A stretch of DNA of 64,000 bases from contig JAVMKO010000001.1 of NCBI GenBank assembly GCA_032164245.1, forward strand, positions 292,503,041 through 292,567,040, in the 5' to 3' direction. The stretch is from Sternotherus odoratus. Taxonomy: Eukaryota > Chordata > Testudines > Kinosternidae. This document shows, piece by piece, positions 24,902 to 62,402 of this stretch. Below the pieces are notes generated by a model. That model searched no databases, was not told where the DNA came from, and saw nothing but the letters and a program-made list of their open reading frames with translations. How positions within the stretch are numbered: the first letter of the stretch is position 1; every line of letters begins with the position of its first letter. The translations under genes were made by a program, and so were the position numbers.

Positions 24902-24905
24902 GTAT
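24902..24905. repeat. Target-site duplication, left (GTAT)
   Basis: GTAT abuts the 5' LTR here and recurs at 30586-30589 after the 3' LTR. A 4-bp duplication fits integration of an LTR element. Confidence 0.85.
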
Positions 24906-25472
24906 TGTGACAGAGTCAGACCTGAAGGGTATAGGAGAGTGCTGGAAGGCAGGTACATCAGTCTCAGGATGTGCAGGTCTCTGTTCCCCCTATAGCCAAA
25001 CAAAGCCTACTCCAGGCCAATCAAGACACCTGGGGTCAATTAAGAAGGTTCTAGCAGGCAGCAGGTTAATTAGGAGCACCTGCTGTCAAGTAAGGCCTTA
25101 ATAAAAACCCCTGCCTCAGGAAGACAGTGTGGGTGTTTGGAGCAGAGAGGAGTTTGGAGACATTGGAGCACAGAGGAGTTTGGAGGCATTGAAGCAGAGA
25201 GCAGTTTGGAAGGAGGCCCTGAGGTAAGGGTGAAGTGGAGAGTAAAGAAGCAGGAACTGTTGTGGGGAAGAAGCCCAGGGGAATTGTATTGTGCTTGGTG
25301 GTTAAAAGGTCAGCCATCTCAACTGAGATTATTAGGGTCCCTGGGCTGGAGCCCGGAGAAGAGGGCGGGCCCGGGCACACCCCCCCCCTGCCTTCCACAA
25401 TTAGCCACTGAGGCTAGTGAAATCCGCCAAGAAACGCAGGACCCACAAGTACAGGCTTGGAGCTTTGTCACA
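24906..25472 (+). repeat. 5' LTR
   Basis: It begins TGTGACA and ends TGTCACA, a 7-bp perfect inverted pair. TTAATAAAAACC at about 25099-25110 could be a TATA-like box and/or polyadenylation signal. From about 25141 to 25215 a ~25-bp unit with GCAGAGAGGAGTTTGGA-like text is repeated three times with changes. It would supply promoter and transcript ends. Confidence 0.95.
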
Positions 25473-25474
25473 AC

Positions 25475-25492
25475 TGGTGTCAGAGGTGGGAT
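25475..25492 (+). promoter_or_regulatory. Primer binding site, tRNA-Leu-like
   Basis: Two bases after the LTR comes TGGTGTCAGAGGTGGGAT. It starts with TGG, complementary to the CCA end of a tRNA, and matches from memory the 3' end of vertebrate tRNA-Leu (CAG/CAA type) with about one mismatch. It would prime minus-strand DNA synthesis. Confidence 0.75.
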
Positions 25493-25602
25493 GTTCGTAC
25501 GCAGCGTGGCGGAAGAAAGACTTTAAAAAGAAAAAGGAAAAAAAAAAAAAAAGTGCCCTGGGGTTTTGAATTCTCTTTGGTGGTTGTCTGCTTTGTGCCA
25601 CA

Positions 25603-28600
25603 ATGGAGGAGGTGATAAGGGCTCTGGTACAAGCCACGGCAGCCCAGCAGGAGACTACCCGGGTTCAGCAGGAAACAAATCAATTAATAATGAATCAGGC
25701 GACCCAAGATCGTGCCCTCTTGCGTGAGGTAATGGATCAGCTAAAGATCCTCACCACCCAGCCCCGAGGGTCTAATGGGATGCAAACCCTAGGGGCCTCT
25801 GTTTGTCTGCCAAAGATGACAGCAGAAGATGACATTGAGGCATATCTTCTCGCATTTGAGAGGACTGCTCAGCGGGAGGCATGGCCCCAGGAGCAGTGGG
25901 CCAGCATTCTCGCCCCCTTTTTGTGCGGAGAGGCCCAGAAAGCCTACTTTGACTTGCCTGCCACAGATGCCACTGACTATCTCCGGCTGAAGGCAGAAAT
26001 CCTAGCACGATTAGGGGTAACAGCAGCGGTACGGGCCCAGAGGTTCCATGAGTGGAAATATCAGGAGACCAAACCCCCGAGGTCCCAACTATTTGATCTC
26101 ATACACCTGGCACGGAAGTGGTTACAGCCCGAGGCATGCAACCCGAATGAGATGTTGGAGACCCTGGTCATCGATCATTATATGCGGGGTCTACCACCAG
26201 ATCTCCATAAATGGGTAGGCCAGAATGATCCATCCGCTTACGACGAGATGATCACGCTGGTAGAAAGACGGATGACAGCCAGGGAATTGACCCGACTACC
26301 TAAACGAGGCCCCTTCTGGAACAGGCACCCAAACCCAACGCTGGAAGTTTGGGCACCCAGTACCCCAGGAGGTCCTAGGTGGAAGAAAGGGAGGGCTGAA
26401 AACCCTGGGGGACCCCAGAAGGAAGGGACCAGTCAGAGGGGGAGGAAGCCGGGGTTCAAATTCCCTAATTCCCATGATAGGGAAACTAGTAGAAATGACT
26501 ATAGATGCTATGCATGTGGGGAGTGGGGACATATAGCAGCACAGTGTCCCAGCAGGAGGAGACCTAGGCAATGTAACTTCGGGGATTGTGAGGTTCCGTG
26601 CTCCCTTCTCCACCTCGTAGGGGTTACATTAGCCCCACATAACTACACCAGACCGGTGAAGATAAATGGGATGGAAACTACAGCACTTGTGGACTCTGGG
26701 AGTGCTATTACCCTTGTATCGGGCAAGCTGATAAAAAGAAGGCAGCTGTTACAAGCCAAACGCATAGCAGTGACTTGTGTACATGGGGCTGTAAGTTATT
26801 ACCCCACTATTCCGGTAGAGATAGCAGTTCAGGGAAACCCCATTGAGGTAACGGTGGGCGTAGTCCCTAACCTCCCATATCCTGTAGTTATTGGGAGGGA
26901 CTATCCAGGGTTTGATAATTTACTTCCCCCAGCGAGGCTGGAGGAAAGCGGGGACCCTGAGGATAGCAATTTACCACCAGGAGAATGTCAACCCCCGATG
27001 TACACGGAAATTTCTGAGGATCTGTTCCCAGCCCCCCAAAGGACCCGGAGGACGAAAAAAGAGAGGAGGGCCGCAAAGGCCTTAGGAACCCGGATCCTGA
27101 CCCAGGATCAGAAGACTGCTCTAGTCGGCCGACGGACCCGAGCAGCCAGCAGAGAAACTTCCACCCCGGAAAGCGAGCCAGAGGCCACCCCACGTCAGGA
27201 TGGCAGTGAGCCACTGGGAGAAGCAGAAGCCAGGCCCTGGGAACTTGGGCACGTTAGTTCTGGGAGAGAATCTTTCGGGCGGGACCAAGCAGAGGACCCT
27301 AGATACGATAACGCCAGAAAAGAGGTAGCCGAGATAGATGGGACACCCGTGGAGGGGAAAGTCCGGGGTACAGGACCTTACTTTATAGTAAAGAAAGATC
27401 TTTTGTACCGTGTGGTGCAAATACAGGAGCAGGAGATCCATCAACTTCTGGTGCCAAGAAAACATCAAAAGGCCATATTGAGCCTTGCCCACAGTCACCT
27501 ATTTGGAGGACACCTAGGGGTCGAGAAAACCCAGGCACGGATCCTGCGGAGGTTCTTCTGGCCAGGAGTGCACGAAGATGTTCGGCGATATTGCATCTCT
27601 TGTCCAGAATGTCAGTTACATAGTCCTCGTCCGCACTTGCGGGCGCCGTTGATACCTCTTCCAATAATAGAGGTACCTTTTGAACGTATAGCTATGGATC
27701 TGGTTGGACCCCTTGAGAAGACAGCTCGGGGACACCAGCATGTGCTTGTTGTACTGGACTATGCAACCCGGTACCCGGAAGCCGTCCCCCTACGCAATAC
27801 AACCTCCAAGATAATAGCTAAGGAGCTACTACAGATTTTTGCCCGAGTTGGGCTACCCAAGGAGATATTGACTGACCAAGGGACACCTTTTGTGTCCAAA
27901 TTGATGAAAGATCTTTGTTCATTGCTCCAGGTAAAAGCCCTACGGACCTCCGTATACCACCCACAAACAGATGGCCTTGTGGAGAGGTTCAATAGGACCC
28001 TCAAGGCCATGATTAGAAAAGTGGTCAGTCAGGGCGGGAAAGATTGGGATACCCTGTTGCCTTACCTCATGTTCGCCATCCGGGAGGTTCCACAAGCCTC
28101 AACGGGTTTCTCCCCGTTTGAACTACTGTACGGGCGCCATCCCCGGGGCATACTGGATATAGCCAGAGAAGCTTGGGAAGAAGAGCCAAATCCTGGAAGG
28201 AATATAGTCGAGCATGTACTGCAGATGCGAGATCGGATAGCCCGAGTTACGCCCATCGTACGGGAACACTTAGAGAAGGCACAAGAGACCCAACGAACCC
28301 ATTATAACCACCGAGCAAAGCTTCGACGGTTCCAGCCAGGAGATCGGGTGATGGTTCTGGTACCCACAGCAGAAAGTAAACTATTGGCTCATTGGCAGGG
28401 ACCCTACGAAGTTATCGAAGCTGTGGGGGAGGTGAACTATAAGGTACGGCAGCCCGGCCGTCGGAAGCCAGAGCAAATTTATCATGTGAATCTTCTAAAA
28501 CCTTGGCACGATCGAGAGGCATGCTTGGTCACCCAGGAGACCCTTCCCCAGGAGGATGATTCACACGAGCAAGTAAAGATATCTCCAGACCTGACGCCGA

Positions 28601-30108
28601 TCCAAAAGAGGGAGGCAGCCGACATGATCAGTCGCAACCGAGATGTGTTCTCTATAAAACCGGGGCGAACAACTGAAGCCTATCACCATATCCGCACGAT
28701 CCCAGGAGCCAAGGTAACATTGAGACCCTACCGAATACCAGAGGCCAAAAGAGGGGAAATCAAGGCTGAAGTAAAGAAAATGTTAGAATTAGGGGTTATT
28801 GAAGAATCTCACAGTCAGTGGTCCAGCCCAATTGTTCTGGTCCCTAAACCTGATGGAACTGTGAGATTCTGTAATGACTTTCGCCGACTGAATGAAATAT
28901 CCCAATTCGATGCGTACCCCATACCACGCATCGATGAACTGGTTGACCGACTGGGTAGTGCCCGATTCTTAACTACACTGGATCTGACAAAAGGTTATTG
29001 GCAAGTTCCCCTGACTAAGGAGGCCAAAGAGAAGACAGCGTTCTCCACCCCAGATGGGCTATTTCAGTACACTGTCCTCCCGTTCGGGCTACATGGGGCA
29101 CCGGCCACATTCCAGCGTCTCATGGATAAACTGTTGCGCCATCATACTAGTTACGCAGCCGCATACCTAGATGATGTCATCATCCATACGCCAGACTGGG
29201 GAACCCACTTGGAGAAAGTGGAAGCAGTACTGCGCACCTTAAGGCGAGCTGGCCTCACTGCTAATCCTGCTAAATGTGCCATAGGGCTAGCAGAGGCTGG
29301 ATACCTGGGATACATTGTAGGAAGGGGCATAGTGAAGCCCCAAATTAATAAGCTAGAGGCAATTCAAAACTGGCCCCAGCCAGTCCGAAAGAAGCAAGTC
29401 CGTGCGTTCCTAGGCGTGGTAGGCTATTATCGACGCTTTATTCCCCATTTTGCCACTAGGGCGAGTGCCCTGACTGAGCTCATAAAAGCTCGGGGACCTG
29501 AAATGATACGATGGACAGATACAGCAGAGAGAGCATTTACAGATCTGAGGACAGCCCTTTGCAGTGACCCCGTACTTATAGCCCCAGACTTCTCTAAGGA
29601 GTTTATCTTGCAGACAGATGCATCCGAAGTAGGACTGGGGGCTGTCCTGTCCCAGATGGTCAGGGAAGAAGAACATCCAATCCTATATCTCAGTAGAAAA
29701 CTCCTCCCAAGAGAACAGAAGTATGCGGTGGTTGAGAGGGAATGCCTTGCTGTTAAATGGGCCATGGAAACACTGAGATACTATCTGCTAGGAAGAAAAT
29801 TTACCCTCGTGACTGACCATGCCCCTCTTCAGTGGATGCAGCGGAATAAGGAGAAAAATGCCAGAGTGACTAGATGGTTTTTATCTCTCCAACCTTTCCA
29901 GTTCCGCATACAACACAGGGCCGGAAGTCATCATGGCAATGCAGATGGCTTATCACGAGTGCACTGTATGTCGACCCAAGTTGCCCAACCCCTTGGCGTT
30001 GAGCAGGGGAGGGGGATATGTGACAGAGTCAGACCTGAAGGGTATAGGAGAGTGCTGGAAGGCAGGTACATCAGTCTCAGGATGTGCAGGTCTCTGTTCC
30101 CCCTATAG
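25603..30108 (+). CDS. Gag-Pol polyprotein, Gmr1-type domain order
   Basis: One 1501-residue frame. The start ATG at 25603 follows a short leader with an A-rich run and has a good context (CCACAATGG). Domains: glutamine-rich, probably coiled N-terminus (1-55); capsid with SCAN-like part (about 140-224); CCHC zinc knuckle (C302, C305, H310, C315); aspartic protease with DSG at 364-366 and VIGRD near 429-433; integrase zinc site H630, H637, C667, C670; integrase core D699, D758, E794 (35 residues between the last two); GPY motif 933-935; RT with LDLTKGYW at 1126 and YLDD at 1188-1191; RNase H acidic residues D1339, E1378, D1405, D1448. There is no chromodomain. Gag and Pol are not separated by a frameshift or stop. 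The last 29 residues (1473-1501) are encoded by the 3' LTR. Function: particle formation, reverse transcription and integration. Confidence 0.95.
30005..30016 (+). promoter_or_regulatory. Polypurine tract
   Basis: AGGGGAGGGGGA sits two bases before the 3' LTR, the expected place for the plus-strand primer. It lies inside the coding frame and is translated as glycine/arginine-rich residues near position 1468. Confidence 0.9.
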
Positions 30109-30585
30109 CCAAACAAAGCCTACTCCAGGCCAATCAAGACACCTGGGGTCAATTAAGAAGGTTCTAGCAGGCAGCAGGTTAATTAGGAGCACCTGCTGTC
30201 AAGTAAGGCCTTAATAAAAACCCCTGCCTCAGGAAGACAGTGTGGGTGTTTGGAGCAGAGAGGAGTTTGGAGACATTGGAGCACAGAGGAGTTTGGAGGC
30301 ATTGAAGCAGAGAGCAGTTTGGAAGGAGGCCCTGAGGTAAGGGTGAAGTGGAGAGTAAAGAAGCAGGAACTGTTGTGGGGAAGAAGCCCAGGGGAATTGT
30401 ATTGTGCTTGGTGGTTAAAAGGTCAGCCATCTCAACTGAGATTATTAGGGTCCCTGGGCTGGAGCCCGGAGAAGAGGGCGGGCCCGGGCACACCCCCCCC
30501 CTGCCTTCCACAATTAGCCACTGAGGCTAGTGAAATCCGCCAAGAAACGCAGGACCCACAAGTACAGGCTTGGAGCTTTGTCACA
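30019..30585 (+). repeat. 3' LTR
   Basis: It has the same 567-bp length and, by line-by-line reading, the same sequence as 24906-25472 (offset 5113). The polyprotein stop codon falls at 30106-30108 inside it. Confidence 0.95.
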
Positions 30586-30589
30586 GTAT
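30586..30589. repeat. Target-site duplication, right (GTAT)
   Basis: This is the right copy of the duplication at 24902-24905. Together they show that the two LTRs belong to one insertion rather than to a rearranged pair. Confidence 0.85.
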
Positions 30590-30759: not shown

Positions 30760-31715
30760 TTCAGACATCAACAAGCCAGAGGCTATTATAAGAGATATAG
30801 CCACAAAAACTGGTCTTCTCACTAGAGCACCTCTGAAACTCACAGTTAAACCCTTCTCCCATCTTTCATGCCAATCTCTGGCTAACAAGTAACTAGGAAA
30901 ATTTTCAAACCTTGTATACAAAGGAGAAAATACCATGCACTAATTTACAGTTAAAATGACACTTTTGGAATTATGGAGAAATGCACGCCCTTTTAAGCAA
31001 TACATCTACTACGCAAACATTAAACTTGCTTACATTTTCTAAGCTGTACACAGCTGAGCTTAGATTGATTGATTTATTTATTACATAAAGCAGACACACA
31101 GCTCAAATTGACTTCTGAGAAAAAGGTACTGAGTCAACTGTGTATTGAATTAAGTAGGCTGCTTTTACTTGTTGACCAACACAGCTATTAGACACGAACC
31201 AGCTACAGACACACCACATACAGCATGGTGCATTTGTTACAGAGGTTTGTATGCAATTAAGAGTATTTCATTGTTTCACCAGACTCCTCTGGCATCCAAT
31301 TAAGTAATAACACAAGAGAGGAGCTCTTAATTAATGAGGAAAATCCTCTGCAAGCTAGACACAGGTGTGCAAGTCTCAAACAGAGCCTGAAATAGTTGAA
31401 TAGATAATTTTAGAAAAACTCGAAGTGTATGCAATTAACTCTATAGTAGAAGGATTATTTATGATTTAACTTCTTTCAATGGGTTTACATTTCTTTGTAG
31501 TATCCAACAATTAAGTAGGTTATAAAAGATTAGACTACAAAACTAACACTAGTGAGTGAGCTAGCATGGTTAAAAGTGATGACAATCACTTGTCCGTTAT
31601 GTTTTTAACAAATTGCACTCAGCACAAATTTAAACTCTGGCTTTTGATAGGAGGCTTTTTAAAGAAGTAATAGTTATGTTGCCATTAAATGAACACATTT
31701 TGAATAAAAAGAATG
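30760..31715. other. Unassigned DNA
   Basis: AT-rich with no supported gene or complete repeat. Confidence 0.4.
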
Positions 31716-32351
31716 AGGGGGTACTTGTGGCATCTTAGAGACTAACAAATTTATTTGGGCATAAGCTTTCGTAGGCTATAGCCCACTTCATCAGATGCAT
31801 GAATGGAAAACACAGTAGAGAGATACATAGAAATACAGAAAACATGAAAAGATGGGGATTGCCTTACCAACTCTAATGAGACAAATAAATTAAAGTGGGC
31901 TACTATCAGCAGGAGGAAAACTCACTTTTATAGTGGTAATCAGGAGGGTCCATTTCAAACAGTTGTCAAAAAGGTGAGAGTAATAGTAGGGGGGAAAATT
32001 AGCTTGGGGAAATAGTTTTTAGTTTGTGTAATGACCCAACCACTCCCAGTCTTTATTCTTGCCTAATTTGACAATGTCCAGTTTGCAAATTAATTCCAGT
32101 TCTGCAGTTTCTCAATGGAGTCTCTTTTTGAAGTTTTTTTTGTTGAAGAATTGCCACTTTTAGGTTTGTAGCATAGTGTCCAAGGAGGCTGAAATGTTCT
32201 CCGACTGGTTTTTGAAGGTTATAATTCTTGATGTCTGATCTGTGTCCATTTATTCTTTTGTGTAGAGATTGTCCAGTTTGACTAATGTACATGGCAGAGG
32301 GGTATTACTGGCAAATGATGGCACTGGCACATCTACCAATATGATGTATGG
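31716..32351 (-). mobile_element. Penelope-like element copy 1, 5'-truncated
   Basis: On the minus strand it runs from part of the GIY-YIG endonuclease region (32292 down to 32053), through a 3' untranslated region, to a tail at 31716-31800 that carries a hammerhead-like core (31758-31794). It lacks the reverse transcriptase. The tail of copy 2 lies directly upstream in sense orientation, so the two copies are head to tail. Confidence 0.8.
32053..32292 (-). pseudogene. GIY-YIG endonuclease fragment of Penelope-like element
   Basis: The 79-residue frame reads YISQTGQSLHKRINGHRSDI at its start, then PVGEHFSLLGH. This is the second half of the GIY-YIG nuclease that Penelope-like retroelements carry after the reverse transcriptase; the GIY part is cut off or degraded. 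The nuclease would nick target DNA for priming. This copy is partial and cannot act alone. Confidence 0.8.
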
Positions 32352-32619
32352 CAGTAGTCCCCAACCTTTCTGCGGACAACAGCACAGTCTTGTGCTATGC
32401 TGTGCTCTCTGGCGCCCGGGGCATGTCCGTCGAAATGCTGCCGAAGTGCCTGCTTCTGTTTTCGGCGGCCCCGCAGCATTCATCCCTGTGTCTGCCAAAA
32501 TGCCACTGACAGCGGAAGCAAGCACTTTGGCGGTTTTTTGGCAGACGCACTCCCACAGATGCACATAAATTCCCTGGCAGGCACCATGGCGCCCACGGGC
32601 ACTGTGTTGGGAACCACTG
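32352..32619. mobile_element. Short hAT-type element at the Penelope junction
   Basis: The ends CAGTAGTCCCCAACCTTTCT and GTTGGGAACCACTG are inverted relatives. Flanks ATGTATGG (32344-32351) and ATATATGG (32620-32627) match at 7 of 8 bases. The interior is GC-rich and has no transposase. Confidence 0.75.
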
Positions 32620-32689
32620 ATATATGGCAGAGTGGTAGCCGCGTTAGTCTGTATCAGCAAAAACAACAAGAAGTCCTTGTGGCACCTTA

Positions 32690-32956
32690 GGGTACATCTA
32701 CATCTATCAGGGACCAATTTATCACATAGACGCGATAAATCGATCCCTGAGCGCTCTCCCCATCGACTCCAGAAGTCCAGCACCACGTGAGGTGAAAACG
32801 GAGTCGACAGGGGAGCGGCACCGGTGAACTCACAACCGTGAGGACGCCCAGGTAAGTCAACCTAAGCTACATCAACTTCAGCTATGCTATGTGCATAGCT
32901 GAAGTTGCATATCTTAGATTGACACCCTCCCTCCCCCCGCAATGTAGACCTGGCCC
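32690..32956. mobile_element. MITE inserted in the Penelope tail
   Basis: The ends GGGTACATCTACAT and ATGTAGACCTGGCCC are inverted relatives. It lies after TTA (32687-32689), and the Penelope tail text resumes at 32957 with GAGACTAAC. The interior includes CATCAACTTCAGCTATGC followed by its complement, a small internal palindrome near 32870-32910. Confidence 0.7.
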
Positions 32957-33284
32957 TGAGACTAACTAATTTATTTGGACATAAGCTTTTGTGGGCTAGA
33001 ACCCACTTCATCAGATGCATGGAGTGGAAAATACAGGAGCAGGTATAAATACATGAAAAGATGGGAGTTGCTTAACCAAATGTGAAGTCAGTCTAAGGAG
33101 ACAATTCAGTTAACAGTAGGATACAAAGGGAGGGGAAAACACTTTTGTAGTGGAAATGAGTGGTCCATTTCAAACCGTTGACAAGAAGGTGTGAGTAATA
33201 GTAGGAGGAAAATTAGGTTGAGGTTTTATAATGACCCAACCACTCCCCGTCTTTATTCAGGCTTAATGTGATGGTGTCCAGTTT

Positions 33285-33500
33285 GCAATTTAATTCCAGT
33301 TCTGCAGTTTCTCATTAGAATCTTTTTTTGAAGTTTTTTTGTTGAAGAATGGCCATTTTTAGGTCTGTTATTGAGTGACCAGGGAGACTGAAGTGTTCTC
33401 TCCTACTGATTTTTGAATGTTATAATTCCTGATGTCAGATTTTTGTCCATTTATTCTTTTGCATAAAGACTGTCCGGTTTGTCCAATGTACATGGCAGAG
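33285..33500 (-). pseudogene. Frameshifted GIY-YIG remnant
   Basis: The minus strand reads MYIGQTGQSLCKRINGQKSD and then loses frame. The nucleotide sequence remains clearly similar to 32053-32292, which shows that this is the same domain in copy 2, inactivated by indels. Confidence 0.75.
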
Positions 33501-33858
33501 GGGCATAGCTGGCACATGACGACATATATCACATTGGCAGATGTCCAGATGAACGAGTCCCTGATGGTGTGGCTGATGTGGTTATGCCCTATGATGGTGT
33601 CCCTTTAATAGATATGTGGACAGAGTTGGCACCAGGGTTTGTTGCAGGGTTTGGTTCCTGGGTTGGTGTTTTTGTTGTGTGGTGTGTAGTTACTGGTGAA
33701 TATTTGCTTTAGGTTGGGGGGTCGTCTGTAAGCGAGGACTGGCCTCTCCCCAAGGTCTGTGAGAGTGAGGGATCGTCCTTCAGGATAGGTTGTAGATCCT
33801 TGATGATGCGCTGGAGAGGTTTTAATGGGGGGCTGTCGGTGATGGCTAGTGATGTTCT

Positions 33859-34305
33859 CTAACTTTCTTTGTTGGGCCTGTCTTGTAGTAGGTGACTTCT
33901 GAGTACCCTTCTGGCTCTGTCAATCTGTTTCTTCACTTCATCAGGTTGGTATTGTAGTTCTAAGAACGCTTGACAGAGATCCTGTAGGCGTTTGTCTCTG
34001 TCTGAGGGATTGGAGCAAATACGGTTGTATCTTAGAGCTTGGCTGTAGACAATGGACTGTGTGATGTAGTCTGGATGAAAGCTGGAGGCATGTAGGTAAG
34101 TATAACCGTCAGTAGTTTTCTGGTAGAGGGTGGTGTTTATGTGACCATCACTTATTAGTACTGTAGTATCTAGGAAGTGGACCTCTTGTATGGACGGCTC
34201 CAGGCTGAGGTTGATGGTGGGGTGGAAATTGTTGAAATCCTGGTGGCATTCCTCAAGGGCCTCCTTCCCATAGGTCCAGATGATGAAGATGTCAATGTAG
34301 CGCAA
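33859..34305 (-). pseudogene. Penelope-like reverse transcriptase fragment
   Basis: A 148-residue frame starting RYIDIFIIWTYG, then EVHFLDTTVLISDG and LHASSFHPDYITQS. This is the region from the catalytic motif C through the thumb of Penelope-like RTs. The expected YIDD pair has only one aspartate (YID followed by IF), apparently a one-codon loss, so polymerase activity is not expected. The upstream fingers and palm motifs are missing. Confidence 0.8.
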
Positions 34306-34321
34306 GTAGAGTAATTGAATT

Positions 34322-34500
34322 GTCTTTTTAGACTGACCTCACACTTGGTAAGGCAACTCCCATCTTTTCATGTATTTATACTTACTCCTGTATTTTCTAC
34401 TCCATGCATCTGATGAAGTGGGTTCTAGCCCATGAAAGCTTATGCCCAAATAAATTTGTTAGTCTGTAGGCTGCCACAAGGACTCCTCGTTGCTTTTACT
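34322..34500 (+). mobile_element. Inverted copy of the Penelope 3' tail
   Basis: The plus-strand text CTTTTCATGTATTTATAC ... CTGATGAAGTGGGTTCTAGC ... AAATAAATTTGTTAGTCTG matches the minus-strand tail of copy 2. The hammerhead-like core is at 34410-34446. It abuts the 5'-truncated body, giving the element terminal repeats that face each other. Confidence 0.8.
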
Positions 34501-58244: not shown

Positions 58245-58820
58245 ATTCCAGAGAACATGCGTCCGTGCTGATGACGGGTTCTTCTCAATAATAATCAAAA
58301 GCAGTGCAGACTGATGCATGTTCACTTTCATTGTCTGAGTCAGATGCGACCAGCAGAAGGTTGATTTTCTTTTTTGATGATTCAGGTTCTGTAGTTTCTG
58401 CATCAGAGTGTTGCTCTTTTAACAACTTCTGAAAGCATGCTCCACACCTCATCCCTCTGATTTTGGAAGGCACTTCAGATTCTTAAGCCGTGGGTTGAGT
58501 GCTGTAGCTCTCTTTAGAATCACATTGGTACCTTCTTTGTGTTTTCTGAAGTGAAAGTTTTCTTAAAATGAACATGTGCTGGGTCATCATCCTAGACCAG
58601 GGGTCTCCAAACTTTTCAGCCCGAGGGCCGCATTAACTATCAAATAGCAGTTCGGGGGCCGACAACACACTCGAGGTCCAAATAAAAAAGAATCAAAACA
58701 TGGATGTTGTTTTTAATTATTTATTTAATATTATTTTATTCAGTTATTATTTAATAACACATTGATACACTACACATGAACACCTGTTCACTACACATGA
58801 ACACTACACATCAACCCCCC

Positions 58821-59288
58821 AACTGACCCACCCAGCCAGGTCTCTCCCCCCAAAACCTCCTTTCCTCCAACCCCCAACTGACCCACCCAGCCAGGTCTCT
58901 CCCCCCAAAACCTCCTTTCCTCCAAACCCCAACTGACCCACCCAGCCAGGTCTCTCCCCCCAAAACCTCCTTTCCTCCAACCCCCCCCCCAACTGACCCA
59001 CCCAGCCAGGTCTCTCCCCCCAAAACCTCCTTTCCTCCAACCCCCCCCCAACTGACCCACCCAGCCAGGTCTCTCCCCCCAAAACCTCCTTTCCTCCAAC
59101 CCCCCCCCCCAAATGACCCACCCAGCCAGGTCTCTCCCCCCCAAAACCTCCTTTCCTCCAACCCCCCCCCCAACTGACCCACCCAGCCAGGTCTCTCCCC
59201 CCCAAACCTCCTTTCCTCCAACCCCCCCCCAAATGACCCACCCAGCCAGGTCTCTCCCCCCCAAACCTCCTTTCCTCCAACCCCCCCC
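58821..59288. repeat. Minisatellite, 55-61 bp x8
   Basis: Units start at 58821, 58876, 58931, 58991, 59050, 59111, 59172 and 59231, each AACTGACCCACCCAGCCAGG followed by CCAAAACCTCCTTTCCTCC and a C run of variable length. Length change is mostly in the C run. Confidence 0.95.
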
Positions 59289-59515
59289 AACTGACCCGCT
59301 CAACCCGGTCTCAATTCCCCCCCCCCCCCCCCAACTGACCCGCTCAACCCGGTCTCTTCCCCCCCCCCCCCAAACTGACCCGCTCAACCCGGTCTCTTCC
59401 CCCCCCCCCAACTGATCCGCCTCAACCCGGTCTCTTCCCCCCCCCCAACTGACCCGCTCAACCCGGTCTCTTCATCCCCCCCCCCAACTGACCCGCTCAA
59501 CCCGGTCTCTCCCCA
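59289..59515. repeat. Minisatellite, 36-44 bp x6
   Basis: Units ACTGACCCGCTCAACCCGGT plus CTCTTCC and a C run. It is a shortened relative of the adjacent array, lacking the AAAACCTCCTTTCC part. Confidence 0.9.
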
Positions 59516-60829: not shown

Positions 60830-62402
60830 TCTCTCTCACACACACACACACACATATACATATACATATGCGTGTATGTACGTTCCCTTACTCCTTCCAC
60901 TCCGTTTGAGCTAGAGACTTGAAATTTGGTACAATTATAGGCTTTAGGGTCCTAATCAGGGTATGAATTGAAATTTTTTCCAATTTCACCTCTGACTCCT
61001 CCTAGGGGTGAAATTCTTTAAAGCCCATTAACATCAGCTGGGCAGCAGGTTAACACCTGCTGTTCTCTGTGACAGAGTTATGATGTAATAATACCCCCTC
61101 CAAAGCCCCCCACTCGCTCAGCTCTCTCCCCCCTCCAACGCGCCTCCCCCACTCGCACAGCTCTCTGCCCCCTCCAACGCCGCCCCCCCCACTCGCACAG
61201 CTCTCTGCCCCCTCCAACGCCGCCCCCCACTCGCACAGCTCTCTGCCCCCTCCAACGCCGCCCCCCCCCACTCGCACAGCTCTCTGCCCCCTCCAACGCC
61301 GCCCCCCCCACTCGCACAGCTCTCTGCCCCCTCCAACGCCGCCCCCCCCACTCGCACAGCTCTCTGCCCCCTCCAACGCCGCCCCCCCCCCACTCGCACA
61401 GCTCTCTGCCCCCTCCAACGCCGCCCCCCCCCCTCGCACAGCTCTCTGCCCCCTCCAACGCCGCCCCCCCCACTCGCACAGCTCTCTGCCCCCTCCAACG
61501 CCGCCCCCCCCACTCGCACAGCTCTCTGCCCCCTCCAACGCCGCCCCCCCCACTCGCACAGCTCTCTGCCCCCTCCAACGCCGCCCCCCCCCCACTCGCA
61601 CAGCTCTCTGCCCCCTCCAACGCCGCCCCCCCCCACTCGCACAGCTCTCTGCCCCCTCCAACGCCGCCCCCCCCACCTCGCACAGCTCTCTGCCCCCTCC
61701 AACGCCGCCCCCCCCACTCGCACAGCTCTCTGCCCCCTCCAACGCCGCCCCCCCACTCGCACAGCTCTCTGCCCCCTCCAACGCCGCCCCCCCACTCGCA
61801 CAGCTCTCTGCCCCCTCCAACGCCGCCCCCCCACTCGCACAGCTCTCTGCCCCCTCCAACGCCGCCCCCCCACTCGCACAGCTCTCTGCCCCCTCCAACG
61901 CCGCCCCCCCCACTCGCACAGCTCTCTGCCCCCTCCAACGCCGCCCCCCCACTCGCACAGCTCTCTGCCCCCTCCAACGCCGCCCCCCCACTCGCACAGC
62001 TCTCTGCCCCCTCCAACGCCGCCCCCCCACTCGCACAGCTCTCTGCCCCCTCCAACGCCGCCCCCCCACTCGCACAGCTCTCTGCCCCCTCCAACGCCGC
62101 CCCCCCACTCGCACAGCTCTCTGCCCCCTCCAACGCCGCCCCCCCACTCGCACAGCTCTCTGCCCCCTCCAACGCCCCCCCCCACTCGCACAGCTCTCTG
62201 CCCCCTCCAACGCCCCCCCCCACTCGCACAGCTCTCTCCCCCCTCCAACGCCCCCCCCCACTCGCACAGCTCTCTCCCCCCTCCAACGCCCCCCCCCACT
62301 CGCACAGCTCTCTCCCCCCTCCAACGCCCCCCCCCACTCGCACAGCTCTCTCCCCTCTTCCCTCCTCCAACAGACCCAAGCAACGCCGGGTATTTGTGCT
62401 AG
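60830..62402 (+). mobile_element. Helitron-like non-autonomous element with minisatellite
   Basis: The 3' end has ACCCAAGCAACGCCGGGT (62374-62391, a short hairpin with ACCC/GGGT) followed 8 nt later by CTAG and T, the usual Helitron terminus. The 5' part after the TC/CA-rich start has TTTGAGCTAGAGACTTGAAA and TTTGGTACAATTATAG, phrases I associate with animal Helitrons. No Rep/helicase is present. The 5' boundary is approximate. Confidence 0.6.
61100..62362. repeat. Minisatellite, ~39 bp x about 32
   Basis: The unit is CACTCGCACAGCTCTCTGCC then CCCTCCAACGCCG and a C run. I count about 32 copies. Copies at the left edge (first) and right edge (last four) carry CTCTCCCCCC in place of CTCTGCCCCC, and the last five lack the CCG, whereas the interior is nearly uniform. 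It produces frames of 421-459 codons in all three minus frames, which are not genes. Confidence 0.97.

Follow-up and report, generated by a model that had tools for sequence, protein, structure and literature searches.

The sequence at 24906-30585 on the forward strand of the 64-kb window (the whole stretch of Sternotherus odoratus DNA that was analysed) is, judging from its sequence, almost certainly a complete, autonomous-looking Gmr1-like Ty3/gypsy LTR retrotransposon that was inserted recently. Its features are as follows.

24906-30585, + strand: structurally complete LTR retrotransposon, recognized from its repeats, ORF and domains
24902..24905, unstranded: left target-site duplication, GTAT, in the sequence flanking the 5' LTR
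24906..25472, + strand: 5' LTR, 567 bp, starting with TGTGACA and ending with TGTCACA, with AATAAA at 25100
25475..25491, + strand: primer-binding site TGGTGTCAGAGGTGGGA, two bases past the 5' LTR
25603..30108, + strand: Gag-Pol ORF, 1501 amino acids plus stop, with the ATG at 25603 and the stop codon at 30106-30108
26032..26274, + strand: C-terminal capsid, Pfam SCAN (E 2.9e-16)
26506..26547, + strand: nucleocapsid CCHC zinc knuckle (Pfam and motif)
26656..26901, + strand: aspartic protease with DSG (Pfam and motif)
27451..27627, + strand: integrase HHCC zinc-binding domain (Pfam and motif)
27676..27984, + strand: integrase catalytic core, DD35E (Pfam and motif)
28399..28503, + strand: integrase C-terminal domain, Integrase_p58_C (Pfam and sequence), which we take to be GPY/F
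28840..29319, + strand: reverse transcriptase (RT), with YLDD at 29164-29175 (Pfam, motif and Ty3 alignment)
29587..29946, + strand: RNase H with residues D, E, D and D (Pfam and motif)
30006..30015, + strand: polypurine tract GGGGAGGGGG, ending three bases short of the 3' LTR
30019..30585, + strand: 3' LTR, 567 bp, an exact match to the 5' LTR
30586..30589, unstranded: right target-site duplication, GTAT, in the sequence flanking the 3' LTR

The Gag-Pol frame is open from 25570, and translation from its first ATG, at 25603, gives the same 1501 residues as stated in the preliminary description of this DNA. The probability of finding an open frame of 1512 codons by chance at the local base composition is about 3e-30. 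The last 90 bases of the frame overlap the 3' LTR. The primer-binding site at 25475, presumably of the tRNA-Leu type, was identical or almost identical in those sampled genomic copies for which it was shown. The leader between the LTR and Gag contained no RNA structure above chance (z 0.71; 146 of 200 shuffles folded equally well). A promoter scan of the LTR detected no promoter-like site, using a bacterial model that is uninformative for a vertebrate sequence, and tRNA and Rfam scans of the 64-kb window gave zero matches.

Elsewhere in the window, direct and inverted copies of one repeat occupy 31707-34497. A frame within this region (33859-34338, - strand) matched no Pfam family, and by eye we take it to resemble Penelope-like elements. 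A Pfam search of ten frames of the window apart from the Gag-Pol ORF gave no match. Long tandem arrays are present at 58815-59514 and 61106-62355, the second being a 39-base unit repeated about 32 times with a 97% match.

Pfam placed the domains along the frame in the order SCAN, zf-CCHC, retroviral protease, integrase zinc-binding domain, rve core, integrase C-terminal domain, RVT_1 and RNase H. When residues are numbered from the start of the open frame at 25570, the integrase has H643, H648, C678 and C681, followed by D710, D769 and E805, with 35 residues separating D769 and E805. The letters counted as catalytic within the protease, integrase, RT and RNase H motifs are those usual for such enzymes. 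The domain search and the motifs agree with the earlier reading of a protease, an integrase with HHCC and DD35E, and then RT and RNase H, with all catalytic residues present. A search of three pieces of the frame against NCBIfam returned only IS481 and IS3 transposases, both with the integrase piece and both below the cut-off. The RT is of the gypsy type: its best match among solved structures was the Ty3 RT-RNase H, and the RT trees described below concur. No copia-type RT family was among the 14 Pfam families matched by the frame, and membership in Ty1/copia was rejected because the RT matches the RVT_1 and RT_RNaseH families and Ty3 instead.

An integrase located upstream of the RT defines Gmr1 elements (PMC2774666, PMC3587641, PMC8220671). 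Conventional gypsy elements have the reverse order, and the order seen here could be imagined to stem from an ordinary gypsy element in which rearrangement moved the integrase before the RT, either in one copy or in a local family. A search for relatives using residues 615-1465, from integrase to RNase H, yielded 4367 proteins among 7962 scored candidates; the nearest of the 120 listed, P0001, was 71% identical. With this query, which favours same-order relatives, integrase preceded RT in 119 of the 120 listed proteins, the exception being P0118, from a pseudoscorpion, which has the reverse order. A stricter cut left 114 as integrase-RT and five unclassed, with P0118 again not integrase-RT. 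The hosts of the 119, where named, were fish, frogs or turtles. A conventional-order set was taken from the 4607 proteins matched when P0118 served as the query; all 120 of these that were listed carry the name Cordylochernes scorpioides. Stricter cuts over all 342 proteins assembled by then gave 99 with RT before integrase and 120 with integrase before RT. Six of the latter came from the P0118 search and had gaps of 477-2067 residues between the domains, which suggests that they reflect neighbouring copies.

Trees were made from rows picked by hand: 22 same-order proteins plus the S. odoratus element, and 12 conventional ones, with Ty3 added for RT only. The conventional side was made up of a single pseudoscorpion species, together with Ty3 in the full RT tree. 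The RT-RNase H tree of all 36 rows was split by domain order (98/97). The full integrase tree of 35 rows had no such split; the conventional protein P0316 was placed among the same-order rows, and other conventional proteins sat on long branches. Removing Ty3, four long-branch conventional rows and three same-order rows left 28 rows for each domain, and both the RT-RNase H and the integrase trees of these were split by order (100/100). The preliminary description had proposed placing the RT among Gmr1-like, Mag and other gypsy clades. The separation from the conventional gypsy rows used here stood in both RT trees. In the full tree, the Gadus morhua same-order protein P0038 grouped inside the clade. 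Gmr1 was first described from cod.

Since 119 of the 120 listed relatives, with named hosts as distant as fish, frogs and turtles, share the order, it is not a local rearrangement of one copy, and the concordant grouping of RT and integrase with the same-order rows in the 28-row trees likewise speaks against a single-copy event. No positive evidence for rearrangement was found, and a rearranged ordinary gypsy element, whether a single copy or a local family, is exceedingly improbable. The integrase-first order is the normal, shared state of the clade to which the element belongs, as expected from the earlier assignment to the Gmr1-like group.

Within that clade, the S. odoratus element paired with P0001 in the RT trees (99/98 with 36 rows and 100/98 with 28 rows) and in the 35-row integrase tree (95/88). 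In the 36-row RT tree, the pair grouped with frog and fish elements at weak support (81/58). In the full trees, Malaclemys, Chrysemys and Pelodiscus formed a branch of their own (99/96 in RT). The Pol of the element is closer to P0001 and to elements of frogs and fish than to the listed turtle Gmr1-like proteins, which could mean that it entered the turtle line recently by horizontal transfer. We consider this unlikely, however: Gag pieces with 72-80% identity are present in Caretta, Chelonoidis and Terrapene, so that the sublineage looks older within turtles; the retention of several Gmr1-like sublineages side by side would explain the RT tree equally well; and the pairing with P0001 was not strongly supported in the 28-row integrase tree.

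The S. odoratus assembly that was searched for further copies comprises 1.76 billion bases in 218 contigs. All 40 LTR matches that were scored, out of 2842 loose candidates, had 99-100% identity, where one copy can give two matches. For the RT, all 101 scored matches, out of 8033 loose candidates, had 97-100% identity. Frames of at least 1500 codons surrounded 82 of the 101 RT matches; 19 were in shorter frames, and one had a stop inside the match. The scored matches are the copies most like the S. odoratus element, a sample biased toward young and intact copies, and the candidate totals do not measure copy number. The preliminary description had regarded a complete copy as uncommon; this did not hold up, given the number of long frames among the scored RT matches and the near identity of the sampled LTR pairs.

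By RT identity, the copies fell into two groups, one at 98-100% and one at about 97%. In the 97% group, the LTRs of the eight full pairs were 93.6-95.1% like those of the element at 24906-30585. This suggests at least two young subfamilies, but two copies of the 98-100% group (L040/L011 and L043/L014) also have LTRs that are only 94.0-94.7% like the element's.

LTR pairs were compared in 31 copies: the S. odoratus element, the next 20 RT rows and the first 10 of the 97% group. Both LTRs were located in 29 of the 31, and two lacked a 5' LTR where it was expected. Full-length pairs numbered 26, after three had been dropped (one starting at base 2, one starting at base 6 and one with its 5' LTR short in the fetched stretch). 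With gaps uncounted, the LTRs differed at 5 of 10,160 sites in the first group (18 pairs) and at 11 of 4,516 sites in the second (8 pairs), and 11 of the 26 full pairs were wholly identical and gap-free. Target duplications of at least four bases flanked 24 of the full pairs, including two of ATATAT in AT repeats; one pair had three bases and one had none. At an assumed substitution rate of about 1e-9 per site and year, the copies of the first group would be at most a few hundred thousand years old.

LTR identity alone does not separate youth from gene conversion or assembly copying, either of which might have made the repeats identical. Such an origin is very unlikely here, as near-zero LTR divergence recurs in insertions spread over several contigs and flanked by differing target duplications, and most of the scored frames were open at full length. 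From these data, the family appears to be young and multi-copy, and we infer from its matching LTRs that the S. odoratus element is itself young. The earlier suggestion that this could be a live source element is compatible with the youth of the family, and the copy at 24906-30585 has no special claim to that role over other copies.

A replication cycle for the element can be proposed by reference to what is known of LTR elements in general. The LTR would drive the synthesis of genomic RNA, and a single Gag-Pol protein would be made and then cut by its own protease. The capsid, with its SCAN-like C-terminal part, would enclose the genomic RNA. A tRNA paired at 25475 would prime minus-strand DNA, the purine tract would prime plus-strand DNA, and the integrase would insert the DNA elsewhere, cutting the target with a 4-bp stagger. 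By analogy with such elements, we infer that the proteins would work and that the element would move in this way.

A 339-residue Gag piece matched 103 proteins, 99 of which carry the SCAN family. The first eight listed were turtle proteins, the best having 80% identity over about two thirds of the piece (Caretta and Chelonoidis), which agrees with the earlier view that the DNA is probably from a turtle. Among solved structures, the Gag piece matched SCAN domains from zinc-finger proteins (best E 5.6e-11). The SCAN domain is reported to have originated from the capsid of a Gmr1-like element, an origin credited to Emerson and Thomas in the cited papers (PMC4592553, PMC3424704, PMC3406341), and the SCAN match in the Gag of the S. 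odoratus element agrees with it. In the painted turtle, 32 metaviral capsid-like frames have been counted, with models that did not detect SCAN proteins (PMC11011659). We also observed three turtle proteins, P0205, P0218 and P0220, in which SCAN is fused to PF13837 and, in two of the three, to PF10545 as well; these are possibly host genes derived from Gmr1-type Gag. A more speculative scenario, to which we assign a low probability, is that the Gmr1-like family is now spreading in the turtle, that its sublineage arrived separately from the listed turtle Gmr1-like elements, and that host SCAN genes of Gmr1 origin may act on it.

A turtle Gmr1-like element was not the subject of any title or abstract opening in a limited survey of the open literature on Gmr1 and on turtle and reptile LTR elements. 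This young and well-preserved Gmr1-like family from a reptile should help in the study of integrase-first elements and of the birth of SCAN genes from capsids. The element leaves existing knowledge of the Gmr1-like group unchanged.

Among known systems, the RT-RNase H of yeast Ty3 aligns end to end with that of the S. odoratus element. Ty3 differs in that the RT tree puts it with the conventional elements, where its exact place is a long-branch join, and in that its integrase lies after RNase H. The C-terminus of the element's capsid resembles the SCAN domains of zinc-finger proteins 24, 42 and 174, PEG3 and ZSCAN10, but sits in the capsid of a mobile element without a zinc-finger array. The closest likeness is to the Gmr1-like clade, with which the element shares an integrase before the RT, a single Gag-Pol of about 1500 codons, a SCAN-related capsid and a vertebrate host. 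Four pufferfish Gmr elements similarly have a single Gag-Pol of 1506-1634 amino acids, and young Gmr1-like copies are described in pufferfishes (PMC11117352). About 200 Gmr1-like copies are reported in the Silurana genome, and transcription of these elements has been described in frogs (PMC4131045); the clade is also reported from crustaceans and an annelid (PMC3587641, PMC8220671). The S. odoratus element differs from the clade in sequence alone, its nearest listed relative, P0001, being 71% identical from integrase to RNase H.
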